A stretch of DNA of 64,000 bases, from positions 62,001 through 126,000 of the forward strand of contig JAFXZS010000016.1 of the NCBI GenBank assembly GCA_017541105.1. Direction: 5' to 3'. A program made the translations under genes and the position numbers. The stretch comes from Clostridia bacterium. GTDB taxonomy: Bacteria > Bacillota > Clostridia > Christensenellales > Aristaeellaceae. Numbering within the stretch: the stretch's first letter is position 1; each line of letters opens with the position of its first letter. Positions 40,730 to 59,097 of this stretch are shown in pieces. The notes beneath the pieces were generated by a model. It saw only the letters and a program-made list of their open reading frames with translations. It had not been told where the DNA came from and made no database searches.

Positions 40730-41521
40730 TTATCCTCCCTGAATGATCAGCCTGCGCTGATTCCGCTGCCAGAAAAGGCAGCCTGCGCCAACCAGCAACA
40801 GTGTCCATCCGGCCTGCAGCAGAAGGATTGCCGGCGCCTGGGGAACGGCAGTTTCTCCGGTATACAGGCGGATCGGGGCATCCAGCATCTGCGCATAGGG
40901 CAGCAGTGTGATTATCCGCTGCCAGCTGTCCGGGTACAGAGTCAGGGGAAGCACATTGCCGCTCAGGATCATCATCAGCAGGTTCATCATTGCCTGGATT
41001 CCCCGCTGGTCCAGGGTGCGCATGGTAAAGGCCATGGTGAGGTTCTCCATGGCGCATATGCAGCAGAGGCCGAGGGTAAGGGCGGCCAGAGAAAGGATCA
41101 GAGCCGGGACAGATGCGGGCAGGGCGATACCCCAGCCTTCCGGCAGGAGGGCGGCAAAAAGAAGCATGGGACCCGCGCGAAGCAGGCTGCCCATCAGTTT
41201 CTGTGCCATGATCCGTACATAGTAAAAGCCATACAGATGAAGCGGACGACACAGGTCATAAGCGATGCCGCCTGAACGGATCTTATCCATCAGGTCGGCA
41301 TCGGAAGCCAAAAGCATCCGGAAAAACGCCTGCTGCAGCCAGACATAGGTTGTTACGTGGGACAGCGGCATGCTTTGCGGTTTCCCGGCATACAGCGCAC
41401 GATACAGTGCGACCAGAATCAGCCCGAAGAAAACCTGGCAGGCAATTCCTCCGAGAGCCGCTCCGCGGTAATGGGTTTCAAGGCGAAAACGCATCCGGAA
41501 AACGGAGAGGTATGCTTTCAT
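40730..41521 (-). CDS. ABC-2 type exporter permease (first)
   Basis: 263 residues, about six membrane helices, partner of the permease at 39925. The N-terminus is YLSVFRMRFRLETHYRGAAL; DKIRSGGIAYDLCRPLHLYG and NVLPLTLYPDSWQRIITLLP match the same family. The start overlaps the end of the ATPase gene by 4 nt, so the three genes are translated together. Confidence 0.9.
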   Translation of the reverse strand: MKAYLSVFRMRFRLETHYRGAALGGIACQVFFGLILVALYRALYAGKPQSMPLSHVTTYVWLQQAFFRMLLASDADLMDKIRSGGIAYDLCRPLHLYGFYYVRIMAQKLMGSLLRAGPMLLFAALLPEGWGIALPASVPALILSLAALTLGLCCICAMENLTMAFTMRTLDQRGIQAMMNLLMMILSGNVLPLTLYPDSWQRIITLLPYAQMLDAPIRLYTGETAVPQAPAILLLQAGWTLLLVGAGCLFWQRNQRRLIIQGG

Positions 41522-42483
41522 AGGCCCATCTCCCGATACATTTCGGCAATCAGATAGTCAATATTCTGCGGCTGGACGGTCATTTCCCGAATCGACCCGG
41601 CCTGCTGAAGCAGTGCAAGCAGTTCCGCGGTCGGAAGCGTTTCCGGCTGATAGGCCAGGCGGAATCCGTCTCCTTCCCGCTGCATTGTGACAGAAGCGGG
41701 AAGTACCGGTATGCAGCCGCTCCGGTCGTAACGGATTTCCACCGTCCGCCTGCGGTCATAGCGCCGCAGGAGATCCTGCAGCTGCCCGTCATACAGCTTC
41801 CGGCCGTGCCCCAATACCATGACCCGGGAACAAAGCGCGGCAATATCCTCCATATCGTGGGTGGTCAGCAGAATGGTTGTCCGATGTTCCTGATTCTCCC
41901 ATTTCAGGAAATCCCGGAGGGCCAGCTTACTGACCGCATCCAGCCCGATGGTCGGCTCGTCCAGGAACAGTATTTCCGGCCGATGCAGAAGGGAACCGCA
42001 CAGTTCCGAACGCATCCGCTGGCCGAGGCTCATCTGGCGCAGCGGCGTCCGGAGAAGATCCCCGAGGTTCAGCGCTTCCGAAAGCTCGCTGAGCCTTTTC
42101 CGATAGGCATCTTCCGGGATGCGGTAGATATCCTTCAGCAGGCTGTAGCTGTCCAGAATCGGAACATCCCACCAAAGCTGCATCCGTTGGCCGAAAACGA
42201 CGCCGATATGCTTTACATAGCTTTTGCGGTCCTTCCAGGGGATCTGGCTGCCGACCCGTACTTCACCGCTGTCCGGGGTCATGATGCCGGAAAGGATTTT
42301 CACCGTTGTGGACTTGCCGGCCCCGTTGGGGCCGATATATCCGATTAATTCTCCCCGGTCAATATCGAAAGAAACATCTGCCAGGGCCTGAATCGTTTCC
42401 TTTTCCCGCAGGAACGATTCGCTGCTGCGCTTTTTCCGGACATAAAAGCGCTTGCACAGATCCCGTACCTGAATATAACTCAT
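41518..42483 (-). CDS. ABC exporter ATP-binding protein
   Basis: 321 residues from the ATG at 42483. Walker A is [17 protein letters not shown], the signature is [16 protein letters not shown] (a G-Q-R variant of LSGGQ) and Walker B is [12 protein letters not shown], followed by the switch [10 protein letters not shown]. The N-terminal [21 protein letters not shown] insertion and the [15 protein letters not shown] block after Walker A are typical of the ATPase paired with ABC-2 permeases of this type. It is first in the three-gene operon. Confidence 0.93.
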
Positions 42484-42558
42484 GCCAGATCTTCCTTTTT
42501 CTTTTCTGTGATTGTCGGCCGGATGATAGCCACGGTTGAAATGCCGGGTTCTTAAAAG

Positions 42559-42641
42559 TGCGGATGGCGGGACTCGAACCCGCACGCTTGTTAGGGCAGG
42601 GGATTTTAAGTCCCCGGTGTCTGCCATTCCACCACATCCGC
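42559..42641 (-). tRNA. tRNA-Leu (anticodon TAA)
   Basis: 83 nt on the minus strand. The acceptor GCGGATG pairs with CATCCGC; the anticodon arm GGGGA-CTTAAAA-TCCCC gives TAA; the long variable arm and the T arm GCGGGTTCGAGTCCCGC are typical of a class II leucine tRNA. CCA is not encoded. Confidence 0.95.
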
Positions 42642-42658: not shown

Positions 42659-44491
42659 TCACCCGGATGATTCCTGCGTCAAGGTGCTGAAATAGATCGT
42701 ATACGGCTCATCCGTCACGTCACAGAGCGGGATGAGGCGGAAGTTTTCAGGCTGGTTCAAAGTCCGGTAGGTGTTCTGCTGCCAGACAAAGGTGCTGTAG
42801 GTATGAGGGATTTCGGGAAGGAGGAAGGAGGATGGTTCGGACAGATCTCCGCGGAGCGGCCTGTCTGTTTCCGTCAGTCCGGCCAGAACAAGGGGACCGT
42901 CCACCAGGGAGACCATGCCCGGAACGCCTTCCAGCGGTTCGCACCGGACAGTGCTCGGGAAGAACAGATCCAGTGTATCGTCGGACCACACGCGGGAAAG
43001 ATGAATATAACCGCCCCGGGAAATGCAATCCGTGACGGGCTGGCCGTTCAGGGAAACCTCCGGGCTTCCGGCGCACCAGGAAGGGATCCGAAGCTTCAGG
43101 CACCAGGCATCGGCAGCATCTGTTTTTACGGTGAAGCGCAGGCTCCAGCGGGAAACATGCCCGCCGCCATGCTCGTCAAAAAGCACCTGATTGTTATAGT
43201 TTTTCATATGGATTGCCTGGGAAAGAGAAACGTTTCCGGCGGAAAGGTGAATCTTTGCCTCGGACGGAATATACTGGCTGACGGTTACCGTGTTTTCACC
43301 GGCATACCAGATCAGCTCCGGGTACAGGGTCTGAGCCTGAACCATGGTGCCGAAACAGCACCAGAAATCCCTGGTGCGGCTGCCCCAGGTTTTCCGGCTC
43401 CCGGGCGCCATGGGAAGGAAATAGGTCGGCATGCCGGTGCTCCGGTTTTGCTGTGCCAGGAATCCGTTGTATATCGCCCGTTCTATGTAGTCCGCATAGG
43501 ACGGGTCCTCTGTCCAGCGGTACAGGTATTCTGCTGTACGGACCATATTATAGACTGTACAGAATTCCTGATCGGTTCCGCACAGATAGCGGCCGTGGCT
43601 GTGGGGCGGGATCCAGAATTCCCCGGCGTTGGATCCGGTGGTGCTGAACATCCCGCGGTCGGTAACGGCTGTTTTCCAGAAAGCCTCCATCCGGCGCATC
43701 CATTTTTCATCCCCTGTAATCTCATAGAGGCGGCCCGCCCCGTGAGAAACCGGAATCGAGGCATTGGCATGATCGTCGGACAGGGCGTCACCCCCTGCAT
43801 CCAAACGGTCAAAGAGTGCGTTTCCCTCGTAGGCTTTTGTCAGGAAACGATATTTCTCCTTCCCTGTCAGGGCCAGCAAATCCGCCCAGACTTCCAGCAT
43901 ACCGGCCTGTTCCCCGGAGAAAACCGCCTCCGGAGCGGATGTGCTTACGGACTCGACCCATCGGACGTACCAGTCTGCAAGATGATCAAGGATTTCAATG
44001 GCTACCGGGTTTCCCAGCCGGTCATAGACATCCTTGAGTCCCATAATGGTTTTATGCATGGTATACTGCGGAGACCAGATATATTGGCTCGTCGCCATCA
44101 AGGTGAAATATTTTTCCGGGATAGATCCGACCCATTCTCCGCCGTTGAGCTTCTGACAGCGGGCAAGCTCGCTGACAATCCAGTCCAGCTTTGCCCTCAG
44201 CTGCGGATGGCTTTCATTGGCGCAGAGGGATGCGGCAGCGGACAGCCAGTGCCCGAGAAAATGGCCGCGTAGCTGGCAGCTGGGAGCTTCCCAGCCCCAA
44301 TGAAGCCTTGCCGATGCCGGATCAGGCAATACCTGCTGATCCGGAAGAATAATGCCGGCTTCCAGATAGAAGTTCTGCAGAAGGCAAACGGAGTCCAGCT
44401 CCATCAGATAATTCTCATTCAGCTTCATGCGCTGATGGAAAAGCCCCGGAAGAATCCGGACATCCGGAAGGGAGAACCGTTTCAGCATCAT
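42659..44491 (-). CDS. GH127-family (DUF1680) glycosidase, probable beta-L-arabinofuranosidase
   Basis: 610 residues from the ATG at 44491 (a second ATG follows at once; a TTG at 44509 is less likely). It has the (alpha/alpha)6 barrel motifs of DUF1680: LHWGWEAPSCQLRGHFLGHW, QYTMHKTIMGLKDVYD, ETCG-like EFCTVYNMVRTAEYLYRW and the metal-site cysteines in RDFWCCFGTMVQ. A C-terminal beta domain follows. Known members cut terminal beta-L-arabinofuranose from plant glycans. No signal peptide is seen, so it should act on imported oligosaccharides in the cytoplasm. It is divergent from the sensor gene at 44657. Confidence 0.9.
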   Translation of the reverse strand: MMLKRFSLPDVRILPGLFHQRMKLNENYLMELDSVCLLQNFYLEAGIILPDQQVLPDPASARLHWGWEAPSCQLRGHFLGHWLSAAASLCANESHPQLRAKLDWIVSELARCQKLNGGEWVGSIPEKYFTLMATSQYIWSPQYTMHKTIMGLKDVYDRLGNPVAIEILDHLADWYVRWVESVSTSAPEAVFSGEQAGMLEVWADLLALTGKEKYRFLTKAYEGNALFDRLDAGGDALSDDHANASIPVSHGAGRLYEITGDEKWMRRMEAFWKTAVTDRGMFSTTGSNAGEFWIPPHSHGRYLCGTDQEFCTVYNMVRTAEYLYRWTEDPSYADYIERAIYNGFLAQQNRSTGMPTYFLPMAPGSRKTWGSRTRDFWCCFGTMVQAQTLYPELIWYAGENTVTVSQYIPSEAKIHLSAGNVSLSQAIHMKNYNNQVLFDEHGGGHVSRWSLRFTVKTDAADAWCLKLRIPSWCAGSPEVSLNGQPVTDCISRGGYIHLSRVWSDDTLDLFFPSTVRCEPLEGVPGMVSLVDGPLVLAGLTETDRPLRGDLSEPSSFLLPEIPHTYSTFVWQQNTYRTLNQPENFRLIPLCDVTDEPYTIYFSTLTQESSG

Positions 44492-44542
44492 CAACACCGC
44501 CCTGTCCAAGAATCACGGCCGAAACCGCCGATTGTGCTGTAT

Positions 44543-44570
44543 ATTTTATCACAAGTAAACCTAAAGTCAA
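44543..44570 (-). promoter_or_regulatory. Promoter of the GH127 gene
   Basis: On the minus strand TTGACT (44565-44570) and TAAAAT (44543-44548), 16-bp spacer, in an AT-rich region shared with the divergent promoter at 44588. Confidence 0.6.
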
Positions 44571-44587
44571 AATGATTCTGTGAATGC

Positions 44588-44616
44588 TTGTACGATGATT
44601 TTGAAAGTGGTATATT
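44588..44616 (+). promoter_or_regulatory. Promoter of the sugar-binding/GGDEF gene
   Basis: TTGTAC (44588-44593) and TATATT (44611-44616) with a 17-bp spacer; 40 bp before the start codon. The two -35 boxes of the divergent promoters are only about 17 bp apart, so one regulator could control both. Confidence 0.65.
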
Positions 44617-44656
44617 ATGAACACATGCGACAGAAGAAAAGGGGAACAGAGAAACG

Positions 44657-46543
44657 ATGTCCAAGAGAATTGCTGTCCTGGTTGCGAGTATTGACCGTGA
44701 ATACCAGCAGGATTTCGCATCGGGGCTGGCTTCCGCCGGGGTGCAGTATGATGCGGATATCTGCATTTTCAACAGCCAGGGCCATATGAATGTCGCTATT
44801 TCCACCAACAGTGAAGTCGGGGAAAGCATGATTTACGATCTCCCCGATCTGAACGAATTTGACGGCGTGATTACCATGCTGGCCACGATGGGAAACGATA
44901 TTGCGCATCAGAAGGTTCTGGATGTTGTCCGTCCGTTTGCAAAAACCGGAAAGCCCCATGTTTCCATCGACGTGCCGATGGAGGGGGCGGTATGTATTCT
45001 GTTTGATGACGCGATCAGCGTGGGAGAGCTGACAGATCATCTGATCAGCGAACACGGCGCCAGGAGGATAGCGTTTGTCAGCGGGCCGAAGAATTCAAAC
45101 GTATCGTCTGCCCGGCTGGAAGCCTGCAGGGAGGCAATGCGCCGGCATGGGCTTACCCTGGATGACAATCTTGTTTTTGACGGTGAATGGACACGGGTAG
45201 GCGGACGCAGAGCCGCAGAACGGATTCTCGAATCCGGAGGTCAGATTCCCGACGCGGTGATCTGCGCCAATGATGATATGGCGCTGAGCGTGATCGAATA
45301 TATGAGCGAACATGGCATCCGTGTTCCGAAGGATGTCATGGTGACAGGCTTTGACGCGCTGCGGGAAGCAGTGATGCGCGGAGTCACATCAGTCTGCCGC
45401 CCCGTTGACAGGTCAGCACGGAAAGCCGTGGAAATCCTTTGCAGATGGATTGACGGGGAGGCCCCGAAGGAGAAGGAAATCCTGCTTTCCACGATCCCCA
45501 TATACGGCGTCAGCTGCGGATGCTCACAAAGCCTGGAGCACATGAATGAAAAGCTTCGTGCCCTCGGGACGGAACGCTGGAACATGGAAACGATCCTGAC
45601 GCGGGTCAGTATGTATTCCGGTACGCTCGCCGGGGTCGGGGATGAGCTGGAAGCCGCGGAAAAGATAAGGGATTTTACGGACAGCTGGAATATACGTGAA
45701 TTGTATCTATGCGTGGATCCGGTCATCTGCGGCCGCGAAAACCGTACAGCGGAAGGCTCGTCTTTTCCGGACGAGATGTATCTGCTCTACGGGATCCGGA
45801 ACGGGAAGGAGTACAGGCAAACCCTGATTGACAGGCGGGATCTGGTTCCCGCCTTGCAGGAAATGCGCAAAAACCCGTCCTGCCTCGTTTTCTGCCCGCT
45901 GTACTACAGAAACAAGAACTTCGGATATGTTGCCATGGACCTGGGCAACGGAACAGGATCAGCTTTGTATTCCGTCCTGATGCTGCTCAACGGTGCGCTG
46001 ATCAGTCTGTACCTGCAGACGAATATCAAGCAGTATGCCGCGAAAATTGAAGATATGGCTGTTCATGATATTATGACCGGCCTGCTGAACCGGCGGGGAT
46101 ATATGGAACAGGCACCCATCGCGATGGGAAAAGCCAGAAAAACAGGAAAGTATTTTGCCCTGCTGAGTATGGACATGGATCATATGAAGAAAATCAATGA
46201 TGAGCACGGGCATATGATGGGGGATGAGGCAATCTGCAGAATGGGGAGAGCGCTGCGTGTCCTGGAGCGTCAGGGTGTTACCCCGGTACACATCAGCGGA
46301 GATGAATTCCTGGCCTATGGCATCATGGATTCCCAGGCGGAAGCGGAGGCGCTGATTCCCGCAATTCAGGCGGAACTGGACAGAATGAACCGGGAGGAAC
46401 CATGGATCAGCGAGATTGGCGCCAGTATCGGCCTGTATGCTGCTGTTCCCGAATCGAGTGATCTGATGGATGAATACATGAGCAAAGCAGACAGGGCCAT
46501 GTATGAGGACAAAGCCCGCAGGAAAAAAAGCAGACCGGTATGA
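44657..46543 (+). CDS. LacI-type sugar-binding domain fused to a GGDEF domain
   Basis: 628 residues. The first part (about 1-290) is a periplasmic-binding-protein fold of the LacI/GalR kind (RIAVLVASIDREYQQDFASG, RIAFVSGPKNSN, DAVICANDDMALSVIEYMSE, VMVTGFDALREAVMRGVTSV), but there is no helix-turn-helix before it and no signal peptide or membrane helix. A linker region (about 300-455) leads to a GGDEF domain (about 458-625; HDIMTGLLNRRGYME, MDMDHMKKINDEHGHMMGDE) whose active-site loop reads SGDEF near residue 546. This suggests a soluble, ligand-controlled diguanylate cyclase or a degenerate c-di-GMP sensor. The divergent GH127 gene hints at a plant-sugar ligand (inference). Confidence 0.88.
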   Translation: MSKRIAVLVASIDREYQQDFASGLASAGVQYDADICIFNSQGHMNVAISTNSEVGESMIYDLPDLNEFDGVITMLATMGNDIAHQKVLDVVRPFAKTGKPHVSIDVPMEGAVCILFDDAISVGELTDHLISEHGARRIAFVSGPKNSNVSSARLEACREAMRRHGLTLDDNLVFDGEWTRVGGRRAAERILESGGQIPDAVICANDDMALSVIEYMSEHGIRVPKDVMVTGFDALREAVMRGVTSVCRPVDRSARKAVEILCRWIDGEAPKEKEILLSTIPIYGVSCGCSQSLEHMNEKLRALGTERWNMETILTRVSMYSGTLAGVGDELEAAEKIRDFTDSWNIRELYLCVDPVICGRENRTAEGSSFPDEMYLLYGIRNGKEYRQTLIDRRDLVPALQEMRKNPSCLVFCPLYYRNKNFGYVAMDLGNGTGSALYSVLMLLNGALISLYLQTNIKQYAAKIEDMAVHDIMTGLLNRRGYMEQAPIAMGKARKTGKYFALLSMDMDHMKKINDEHGHMMGDEAICRMGRALRVLERQGVTPVHISGDEFLAYGIMDSQAEAEALIPAIQAELDRMNREEPWISEIGASIGLYAAVPESSDLMDEYMSKADRAMYEDKARRKKSRPV

Positions 46544-46576: not shown

Positions 46577-46879
46577 TTAATCCTGATTTAAATCATCCGT
46601 GAGCCGGAGAAGCTTTTCAAAAACCGCATCCGCCACGTCATCTTCGGGAACGTTATACACATCCTCGCCGTTTTCATCCTGCTCAATCTTCAGAATGAAC
46701 ACTTCCAGATCGTCTTCATCCGCATCCGGGTCGCACAGTGCCAGATAGCTTTCTCCTTTATACTCCAGGGTGGCAAGGTGCTCAAAAACGGTTGTTTCCC
46801 CGTTTTCGTCAATCAGCTCCACCAGATCGTTTTCTTCTTCATTTTCTTCGGGATCAAATTTTCCGATTTCGTCTGCCAT
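46577..46879 (-). CDS. DUF1292 protein (YrzB-like)
   Basis: 100 residues, strongly acidic. The DUF1292 pattern LVELIDENGETTVFEHLATLEYKGESYLALCDPD is clear. The family is widespread in Firmicutes next to ruvX (yrzB-yqgF) but has no known function. It follows ruvX by 15 nt and ends in a terminator. Confidence 0.92.
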   Translation of the reverse strand: MADEIGKFDPEENEEENDLVELIDENGETTVFEHLATLEYKGESYLALCDPDADEDDLEVFILKIEQDENGEDVYNVPEDDVADAVFEKLLRLTDDLNQD

Positions 46880-57226: not shown

Positions 57227-58303
57227 TTATATAATCACCCGGTTCCGGCCGCTGTTTTTACCGATATACAGCTTGTGATCCGCAGATTTAAGCAGTTCTT
57301 CCAGCGTGGACTTGAAGTCTGTCTCCTCCACGCCGATGGTGATGGTGATGGAGAAAGGAACCCCGTCAAACTCCAGGGGCATCTGCTCCACGGCAAAGTT
57401 CAGATCGTTCATGATAACGCCGGCTTCATCGATGTTCTTCTCCGGCAGGAAGAAACAGAACTCTTCACCGCCCCAGCGGCAGGCGCGGTAACGGCCCTGG
57501 GACTCGGACTCAAAAAGGCTGGTCAGCGAAACCAGTGTTTTATCCCCGCAGGAATGGCCGTACGTGTCATTGATCTTCTTAAAAAAGTCAATATCCGCGA
57601 TCGCAATGCTGAAAGGTGTTTCCGGGAAGCTTTTCTGATAATTCTCAATGATGCTGATCATTTCCCTCCGATTCGGAAGGCCGGTGAGCGGATCTGTCCC
57701 GGCTTCCTTGTTCAGCGTTTCGTTATCCAGCCGAAGCTTTCGTTCCGTATCCTGAAGACTGGAACTGAAAAGGATGCATGCGACGGCAACCAGCAGGAAA
57801 AAACCCGTGCTGTTGGCAGTCTGGAAAATGATGCCGGTGGTATGGTCCAGGCTGTATACCGGCGTGCGGGAACCGGCATAGGAAAAAAGCCCCATCCGGT
57901 AAGCCAGAACAGCAAGGCACATGAGTATTTTCATCTTGGGAGGGATGCATACATTGAAAAAAAGGAACAGCAGCAGGACGACCAGAAAATGCTGCAGGCC
58001 GTAACTCCAGCCGAAATGATGGATTCCCCAGCCGCACCAGATTACAACCGCGGCAGTGAACAGAAGAAAATTCTGAATGATGTTCAACTTGTTAATCCTT
58101 ATGACCAGGGCCACCGTAACAAGGCACATCAGCGCGGGAACCCATTCCCAATGGCCGCTCATCAGAGGAAAAAGGAAAAAGGACATAAGAAAATAACACG
58201 CCAGGATGGATTCGCTGGCGACAAGCGCTCTGCGATAGTATGCCGGCATCACCCTGCCGGCCGCAGGAACTTTCTGATGAAGAAATTCAAGAAAAACCTG
58301 CAT
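57227..58303 (-). CDS. Membrane diguanylate cyclase (GGDEF)
   Basis: 358 residues from the ATG at 58303, chosen because GGAGGA lies 7 nt before it. The first 190 residues form about six membrane helices without an obvious sensor domain. The GGDEF domain (about 195-355) has DPLTGLPNRREMI, ADIDFFKKINDTYGHSCGDK and an intact GGEEF active loop, so it should make c-di-GMP. It follows the histidine phosphatase on the same strand by about 100 nt. Confidence 0.92.
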   Translation of the reverse strand: MQVFLEFLHQKVPAAGRVMPAYYRRALVASESILACYFLMSFFLFPLMSGHWEWVPALMCLVTVALVIRINKLNIIQNFLLFTAAVVIWCGWGIHHFGWSYGLQHFLVVLLLFLFFNVCIPPKMKILMCLAVLAYRMGLFSYAGSRTPVYSLDHTTGIIFQTANSTGFFLLVAVACILFSSSLQDTERKLRLDNETLNKEAGTDPLTGLPNRREMISIIENYQKSFPETPFSIAIADIDFFKKINDTYGHSCGDKTLVSLTSLFESESQGRYRACRWGGEEFCFFLPEKNIDEAGVIMNDLNFAVEQMPLEFDGVPFSITITIGVEETDFKSTLEELLKSADHKLYIGKNSGRNRVII

Positions 58304-58404
58304 ACTTCCTCCGATTATCATACTGTGCGGCTGATCATTCTTATTATGCACGATTTCCGTCTCAATTTCAAGCCTGCCGGAGAAAAAGAAGGCAGATAAG
58401 AAAG

Positions 58405-59097
58405 TCACATCATCGCAAGCCGGTGATATTTTATTCCGTGGATATGCCGGCCGTCATTTGCCAGTTCGAGACAGGGAAGCGAGGCGGATCCGGGCTTCCT
58501 GCCAAGGCGTATGATTGTGATGCCGGTGAACTCCATATGCAGCAAGGCACATACAAAGGGAAAAGGAAGGTTCAGCATATGGGCGATGGCCGCGCTGGAG
58601 GAACCGCCGTGGCTGAAAAGGGCAACGGTGGCCTGCGCATCATCAGCCTGTGTGCAGCGGTAATAAAATTCTTCCCGCTGGTATCCGAGGGCCAAAAGCC
58701 AGCTGTCAATGCCGCTTTCCACCAGATCCACCGATTCACAGACACGGTTGTTTCTGAAATACACAGATTCCCGCCAGTCGCTTCGGTTCAGGCTGATTCC
58801 GCGGCGGGCGATTTCATCCGCGAGATCCCAGGGGTGCCCGTTCGCGAACAGGGGAGTCCCGTCACGGCTGCCCCAGTGCAGTTCACGCATGAAGTCAAGT
58901 GTCTGAACAGGGAGATTCAGCAGGGAAGCGGTGACATCGGCAGTTTCCCGGGCACGCCCGAGCGGAGAAGACCAGACGGCGCTGATTTCTTCTTCCCGGA
59001 GCCGTTCCGCAACGGCTGACGCCTGGAGATGCCCGGCTTCAGTCAGGCAGTCTTTCTCGTAATTCGGCTCCCCATGGCGGACAAAGATAATTCTCAT
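58405..59097 (-). CDS. Histidine phosphatase superfamily protein
   Basis: 230 residues from the ATG at 59097. The catalytic RHG motif is in RIIFVRHGEPNYEKD, with SSPLGRARETADV and ALFSHGGSSSA supplying the second histidine. A longer frame to an ATG at 59160 exists, but a TATAAT-like box lies right before that ATG, which suggests it is promoter. Similar proteins include phosphoglycerate mutase-like and alpha-ribazole phosphatase enzymes; the substrate is not defined. Confidence 0.88.
   Translation of the reverse strand: MRIIFVRHGEPNYEKDCLTEAGHLQASAVAERLREEEISAVWSSPLGRARETADVTASLLNLPVQTLDFMRELHWGSRDGTPLFANGHPWDLADEIARRGISLNRSDWRESVYFRNNRVCESVDLVESGIDSWLLALGYQREEFYYRCTQADDAQATVALFSHGGSSSAAIAHMLNLPFPFVCALLHMEFTGITIIRLGRKPGSASLPCLELANDGRHIHGIKYHRLAMM

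Follow-up and report, generated by a model that had tools for sequence, protein, structure and literature searches.

A LacI-type ligand-binding domain, a conserved middle region and a GGDEF domain in one protein: a candidate ligand-gated diguanylate cyclase of Clostridia

LacI/GalR proteins normally couple a ligand-binding domain to a DNA-binding headpiece, which raises the question of what such a domain might control when it is joined to a GGDEF domain instead, and whether its ligand can be read from the genes that surround it. This combination is encoded at 44657..46543 (+) of the window, by which we mean the whole stretch of 64,000 nucleotides analysed here, from a Clostridia bacterium whose genome we call G000. 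A preliminary description of the locus proposed a cytoplasmic sugar sensor without headpiece, fused to a GGDEF domain with an SGDEF loop, and placed back to back with a glycosidase gene in a manner suggesting a direct link between hemicellulose sugars and c-di-GMP.

Domain architecture and distribution

The open reading frame of 628 codons starts with ATG, 11 nt downstream of the ribosome-binding site AGGGGA (44640..44645, +). A Pfam scan of the protein (E up to 0.01) returned four matches above their family cut-offs, namely Peripla_BP_3 at residues 127-287 (2.2e-27), Peripla_BP_1 at 4-265 (6.7e-14), Peripla_BP_4 at 121-239 (7.6e-11) and GGDEF (PF00990) at 468-623 (2.3e-25), the last of which also matched TIGR00254 above cut-off (1.2e-25). 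Together with the alignment to E. coli LacI and the solved LacI-family relatives, this assigns residues 1-287 (44657..45517, +) to a LacI/GalR ligand-binding domain and residues 463-628 (46043..46540, +) to the GGDEF domain. The ligand-binding domain is C-terminal in LacI/GalR proteins; here it is N-terminal and the headpiece is missing. No helix-turn-helix (HTH) family matched the 628 residues at E up to 0.01. The stop-to-stop frame comprises 640 codons with the start at codon 13, so there is no hidden headpiece: the 12 codons upstream are too few for a corrected start to reveal one. Pfam and frame length thus rule out a hidden HTH, and conservation rules out a chance open reading frame. In 23 relatives, too, a start codon is available at the corresponding position. 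The fusion and the loss of the headpiece therefore stand as first described, the fusion is real and the gene conserved, and a protein that lacks the N-terminal HTH headpiece is not to be filed as a LacI transcription factor.

The description as a sensor plus a GGDEF domain was nevertheless incomplete, since it overlooked residues 288-462; the protein has three parts, not two. This middle region (45518..46042, +) includes a hydrophobic helix at residues 435-453 that leads into the GGDEF domain. Pfam gave no match to it in the window sequence (residues 289-468) and a single weak, unrelated match (0.0098) when eight such regions were scanned, and the PDB gave no credible match (best 0.25). A profile built from the eight proteins found 19 matches in 8 genomes of the genus, all 19 of them within LacI-GGDEF matches. 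The region, of about 175 amino acids, is a candidate new domain family, encountered in these 8 genomes only together with a LacI-type sensor and a GGDEF domain; it looks GAF-like by eye only.

Hydropathy also bears on where the sensor resides. The N-terminus of the window protein peaks at 0.95 over its first 40 windows, which gives no indication of a signal peptide, and a 19-residue stretch at 435-453 scores 1.68. The earlier statement that the protein has neither membrane helix nor signal consequently holds, as far as hydropathy goes, for the N-terminus, while the stretch at 435-453 is borderline. A membrane-anchored receptor, with this helix spanning the membrane and the LacI-type domain facing outward, would fit the value of 1.68 and those found among orthologues, which range from 1.37 to 2.03 where the peak lies there. 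The absence of any hydrophobic stretch at the N-terminus argues against it, as do nine more distant or paralogous proteins, of which eight have their peak elsewhere and none exceeds 1.58; on this hydropathy evidence we consider a transmembrane receptor highly improbable. Because of the same nine proteins, residues 435-453 are read as a buried, packed or dimer helix feeding the GGDEF domain, and the LacI-type sensor is probably cytoplasmic. A helix entering a GGDEF domain would resemble other cyclases with helical linkers, such as DgcR, for which register switching of these linkers is described in the part of the source available (PMC8041772).

Of the 45 genus genomes, 27 contain an orthologue (at least 51% identity), which in one of them (G040) is split over contigs, and 36 contain some match at E 1e-20. 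A scan of contigs found relatives at 36 loci; at some with lower scores the match is confined to the LacI-type part. The 26 orthologues aligned below are all those of the genus except one truncated sequence (L035); two more distant relatives (L034 and L036) were also left out. Within the order, the full-protein profile matched at E 1e-50 in 16 out of 297 genomes, in 14 cases over nearly the full length; 13 of these 14 belong to the same family. Within the phylum it matched at E 1e-60 in 7 out of 398, three near full length. G000 is counted each time, and each set of genomes is a sample from a larger group. Relatives beyond the family include Lachnospiraceae records. The three-part receptor is thus mainly a feature of its own family, with scattered relatives. 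A plasmid collection yielded 36 matching records, in none of which the match covered more than 80% of the query, and among the matches listed 15/15 were LacI regulators.

The ligand pocket and the GGDEF active site

Alignment with E. coli LacI places D149, R197, W220, N246 and D274, which we take to be its sugar-contact positions, at D105, R153, W178, N205 and D233 of the window protein, and all five are invariant in 26/26 orthologues. In the other aligned rows the R197 and D274 places are kept throughout and the N246 place in all but one. The D149 and W220 places vary among the paralogues, as would be expected if these bind other ligands. A loop in the N-lobe, R14-E15-Y16-Q17, is invariant in the 26 orthologues and different in the paralogues. 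R14 and R248, both invariant in the 26, occupy the places of L73 and Q291 of LacI, and their position near the pocket points tentatively to a ligand that is acidic or phosphorylated. The ligand is most likely a small cytoplasmic molecule, either a sugar or a sugar acid or sugar phosphate.

PurR and CcpA rank high among the solved relatives found by profile search, and the gene lies mostly beside housekeeping genes rather than sugar genes. Both points would suit a cytoplasmic sensor that gates the GGDEF domain in response to a metabolite other than a sugar, such as a purine in the manner of PurR, or to a protein partner as in the CcpA-HPr pair. The Trp at the W220 place and the Asp at the D149 place are, however, those of LacI itself and differ in several paralogues, and this leaves a non-sugar or partner sensor unlikely. 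Taken together, the Pfam matches and the 26-orthologue alignment uphold the core of the preliminary description, a LacI-type and probably cytoplasmic sensor with a sugar-type pocket on a GGDEF domain with its catalytic positions intact.

Within the GGDEF domain, D506, K511, N514, D523, D549, E550 and K619 do not vary among the 26 orthologues; by comparison with PleD, these presumably serve as metal, guanine and phosphate contacts. Among the solved GGDEF chains with which the domain aligns is 6zxb (DgcR). The active-site loop, S547-F551 (46295..46309, +), is indeed SGDEF as first noted, and reads H-[IV]-SGDE[FY] in each of the 28 sequences that extend this far, the 29th (L035) ending before this point. 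Two positions ahead of the loop the usual Arg is His in the window protein (HISGDEF versus RxGGDEF). The canonical RxxD I-site upstream is absent: the window protein has RQGV there, and by eye no orthologue combines the Arg and the Asp. D523 lies at the position, mapped by alignment, that decides between c-di-GMP and cGAMP, and it is Asp in 26/26 orthologues. In the cGAMP-making Hypr GGDEF enzymes this guanine-reading Asp is replaced by Ser, according to the accessible part of PMC6456294; the Asp, as in canonical cyclases, rules out a Hypr enzyme here.

Is such a GGDEF domain active? It could instead be silent or nearly so, and act under the LacI-type sensor as a receptor for GTP or c-di-GMP or as a protein-docking module. 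This reading draws on the departure from RxGGDEF in the orthologues, whereas the four GGDEF-only LacI-type paralogues in G000 keep R-x-GGDEF, and on VCA0965, whose activity was abolished when the first loop residue was changed to Ser (PMC3974145, as far as available). On the other hand, the remaining catalytic and GTP positions that we checked are invariant in the 26 orthologues, the RxxD site that some inactive GGDEF receptors use is missing, and SGDEF domains have been reported active elsewhere. Within the available text of the sources, these are ECA3270 (as cited in PMC3974145) and MbaA, which earlier work held to be inert and which in vivo evidence now presents as active (PMC8079147); loops of the [G/A/S]G type are likewise assigned as active (PMC6456294). 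Given VCA0965, activity of SGDEF appears to depend on context, and Ser in the first loop position would be compatible with catalysis. A silent domain therefore strikes us as a rather doubtful reading, if slightly less so than a non-sugar sensor.

The explanation that best accommodates these observations is that the protein is a soluble, homodimeric, ligand-gated diguanylate cyclase, and on the strength of the conserved residues we consider this probable, though well short of certain. According to such a mechanism, binding of a cytoplasmic small molecule would close the LacI-type domain, and the change would be relayed by the middle region and by the helix that runs into the GGDEF domain. Two GGDEF domains would then align and turn two GTP into c-di-GMP, presumably with ligand as the activating signal, and product inhibition via a canonical I-site would not be expected. 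Points against this reading are the Ser and His of the loop in the light of VCA0965, the borderline hydrophobicity of 435-453 and the absence of a PilZ match from eight genomes of the genus, described below.

The divergent glycosidase gene and other neighbours

Directly upstream and on the opposite strand lies a gene for a GH127/GH146-type glycosidase (42659..44509, -; start codon uncertain within 44485-44509). Its earlier assignment to GH127 agrees with the match to the Pfam GH127 model (PF07944, 2.4e-73), but the nearest solved chain is 5opj (3.2e-52), presumably a GH146 enzyme, followed by 8k7y/8k7x (7e-25 and 2e-24) and only then by the chain named GH127, 4qjy (1.9e-13), with 3wre/3wkw further behind (6e-6). 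Beta-L-arabinofuranosidases of this clan are known from hydroxyproline-linked and pectic arabinosides, which are not typical hemicellulose. The two genes are separated by an intergenic region of about 150 bp (44510..44656). A promoter scan of this gap found one sigma-70-like site (44570-44543, 10/12), on the minus strand and thus on the glycosidase side, and none for the sensor gene; over the whole window the scan returned five sites, against 2.3 expected by chance. Of the back-to-back promoters originally proposed, the divergent orientation is confirmed and a candidate site is seen on the glycosidase side only.

An obvious proposal from this arrangement is that the receptor is a dedicated sensor of the arabinose or arabino-oligosaccharides that the adjacent enzyme releases. 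With at least 60% identity required for presence of GH127 (relatives at 40-42% in G006, G009 and G016 were not counted), the 45 genus genomes contain the orthologue in 27 and the GH127 gene in 20 cases: 15 have both, 12 the orthologue alone, 5 GH127 alone and 13 neither, a weak co-occurrence (Fisher two-sided p 0.078). Many of the genomes are incomplete, making single absences weak, and among the 25 that are at least 85% complete the corresponding counts are 9/10/1/5 (p 0.34). In the 27 genomes with an orthologue, GH127 is the divergent neighbour in 7 (G000, G006, G008, G019, G020, G035 and G039), lies elsewhere in 8 and is not detected at this threshold in 12. On a tree of 29 sequences the adjacency requires four gains or losses (bootstrap range 3-5), a value as low as this arising in 8 of 500 label shuffles, with L034-L036 on long branches. 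Adjacency is thus clustered on the orthologue tree but not stable.

This clustering and the weak co-occurrence are what a sensor of arabinose compounds has in its favour. Against them stand the 20 sensor genomes in which GH127 is elsewhere or not detected and the mapped pocket residues, which are identical in GH127-adjacent and non-adjacent orthologues. The invariant R14 and R248 would also be unusual near a pocket for a neutral pentose, and the commoner neighbours of the gene are DUF1292-ruvX-pnp. By eye, no shared operator stands out when the intergenic regions of the seven loci with this arrangement are compared, nor is the region of the sigma-70-like site visibly conserved among them. A dedicated arabinose sensor is accordingly very unlikely. 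A ligand specifically tied to GH127 is not supported; the same holds for a conserved operon or regulon, in view of adjacency in 7/27 and the variable neighbours. The direct link from hemicellulose sugars to c-di-GMP through this enzyme likewise lacks support, and the expectation that the gene would be conserved beside carbohydrate genes largely fails for GH127, which stands outside any conserved unit. The orthologues, and with them the candidate ligand-gated cyclase, are conserved independently of GH127.

Downstream, the DUF1292 gene (46577..46879, -) is the start of the commoner neighbourhood DUF1292-ruvX-pnp-rpsO-pyrR-uraA, the first two genes of which stand directly after the sensor gene in 19/28 loci of relatives and in the window. 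These 19 comprise 14 from the set of 20 loci L018-L037 and 5 from the set of 8 loci L059-L066; in the former set, two sequences (L029 and L035) end before the DUF1292 point, two (L034 and L036) are without the block, and two (L028 and L033) have it nearby in another arrangement. Upstream of the orthologue, L024 carries an amino-acid ABC transporter and L037 a Na+/H+ antiporter-type gene. In two loci an integrase-type gene sits directly upstream, in the position that GH127 occupies in sister species: L018:6373-7623 (Phage_integrase, 3.2e-24) and L020:4008-5165, the latter sharing by eye the N-terminus of the former. Further out in the window, a tRNA-Leu gene (42558-42641, -) overlaps the 5' end of an ABC ATPase frame as listed (41518-42627), the true start of which is for this reason probably later; six tRNAs are all that reached the gathering score when the window was searched with Rfam.

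Known systems and the paralogues of G000

The protein shares with LacI/GalR regulators (LacI, RbsR, AscG, PurR and CcpA) the ligand-binding domain over 287 residues, with the five LacI contact positions kept, but it lacks their headpiece and has a GGDEF domain, after the middle region, as its output. From sensor diguanylate cyclases such as DgcR, WspR, PleD and the GAF- or PAS-GGDEF proteins, with which it has in common an N-terminal sensor, a helical linker and a C-terminal GGDEF domain with its metal and GTP residues, it differs in the LacI-type and probably cytoplasmic sensor, the HISGDEF loop and the missing RxxD I-site. A binding protein likewise controls an SGDEF domain in NspS-MbaA of Vibrio cholerae (PMC8079147, as far as available), but there the binding protein is separate and periplasmic, the receptor is a membrane protein with an EAL-type domain, and the ligands are polyamines. 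EIIA-Glc/PdeS of the same organism also ties carbohydrate state to c-di-GMP, according to the part of a 2022 review that was available (PMC8846402), although through PTS phosphorylation of a partner protein and not through direct ligand binding within one polypeptide. That review, in the same part, gives a PTS route for carbohydrates, and the LacI-type Periplas_BP figures there only as a putative sensor of GGDEF, EAL and HD-GYP proteins that may bind sugars, an entry derived from homology and given there with no tested example. The literature matches listed, in which subscription papers are mostly outside coverage, included no experimental work on a protein joining a LacI-type sensor to GGDEF; two papers on AI-2/LsrB (PMC12268683 and PMC9540692, as far as available) deal with sensors of other types. 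For these reasons the domain pair is already known as a catalogue entry; new here are its delimitation as a clade, the pocket map, the middle region, the lineage-specific HISGDEF loop, the set of paralogues with an EAL member, and the GH127 test. If the receptor is sugar-gated, it would represent a one-protein mechanism joining sugars to c-di-GMP in gut bacteria and, being probably soluble, could be easily assayed and used for sugar-controlled c-di-GMP tools.

The gene has relatives in its own genome. G000, which is 62% complete, yielded 17 GGDEF matches, counted as 15 open reading frames, and five EAL matches. At least four further LacI-type GGDEF proteins have the same order of domains and the same size (L002/L054, L004/L056, L005/L057 and L009/L058), and the middle-region profile matches three of them, the exception at E 1e-5 being L054. 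A sixth protein, of 1295 amino acids (L016/L055), combines a LacI-type sensor with a degenerate GGDEF domain and an EAL domain. Neighbours vary among the paralogues: one has GH67 and GntR genes no more than 8 kb away, another has an amino-acid-type ABC transporter next to it, and the EAL form has shikimate-pathway genes nearby. PilZ gave no match in G000 or in seven relatives at least 94% complete, as compared with matches in 5 of 14 control genomes. A search of eight genomes for the c-di-GMP-I riboswitch also returned nothing, but was uninformative, as the positive control matched nowhere either.

Tentatively, one may imagine that LacI repressors gave rise, in this uncultured lineage of gut Clostridia, to a second-messenger system independent of DNA. 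At least five cytoplasmic LacI-type paralogues would make c-di-GMP and a sixth, with the EAL domain, would destroy it, each reading a different intracellular metabolite, in genomes that gave no PilZ match. We consider this possible, if clearly less probable than ligand gating of the window protein itself. If true, such a system would connect catabolite sensing to behaviour by a route additional to transcription.

Some details of these proteins may be added. The EAL form is encoded at L055:7426-11313 (contig C14); its degenerate GGDEF motif reads ISEDQF by eye, and its C-terminal tail of about 420 amino acids looks repetitive by eye and matched no Pfam family at E 0.001. Frames of 1297-1562 codons that include LacI-type matches turn up repeatedly across the genus. 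The window itself holds a second GGDEF gene (57227-58408, -), whose product has, by eye, a hydrophobic, membrane-like N-terminal half and carries a canonical WGGEEF motif.
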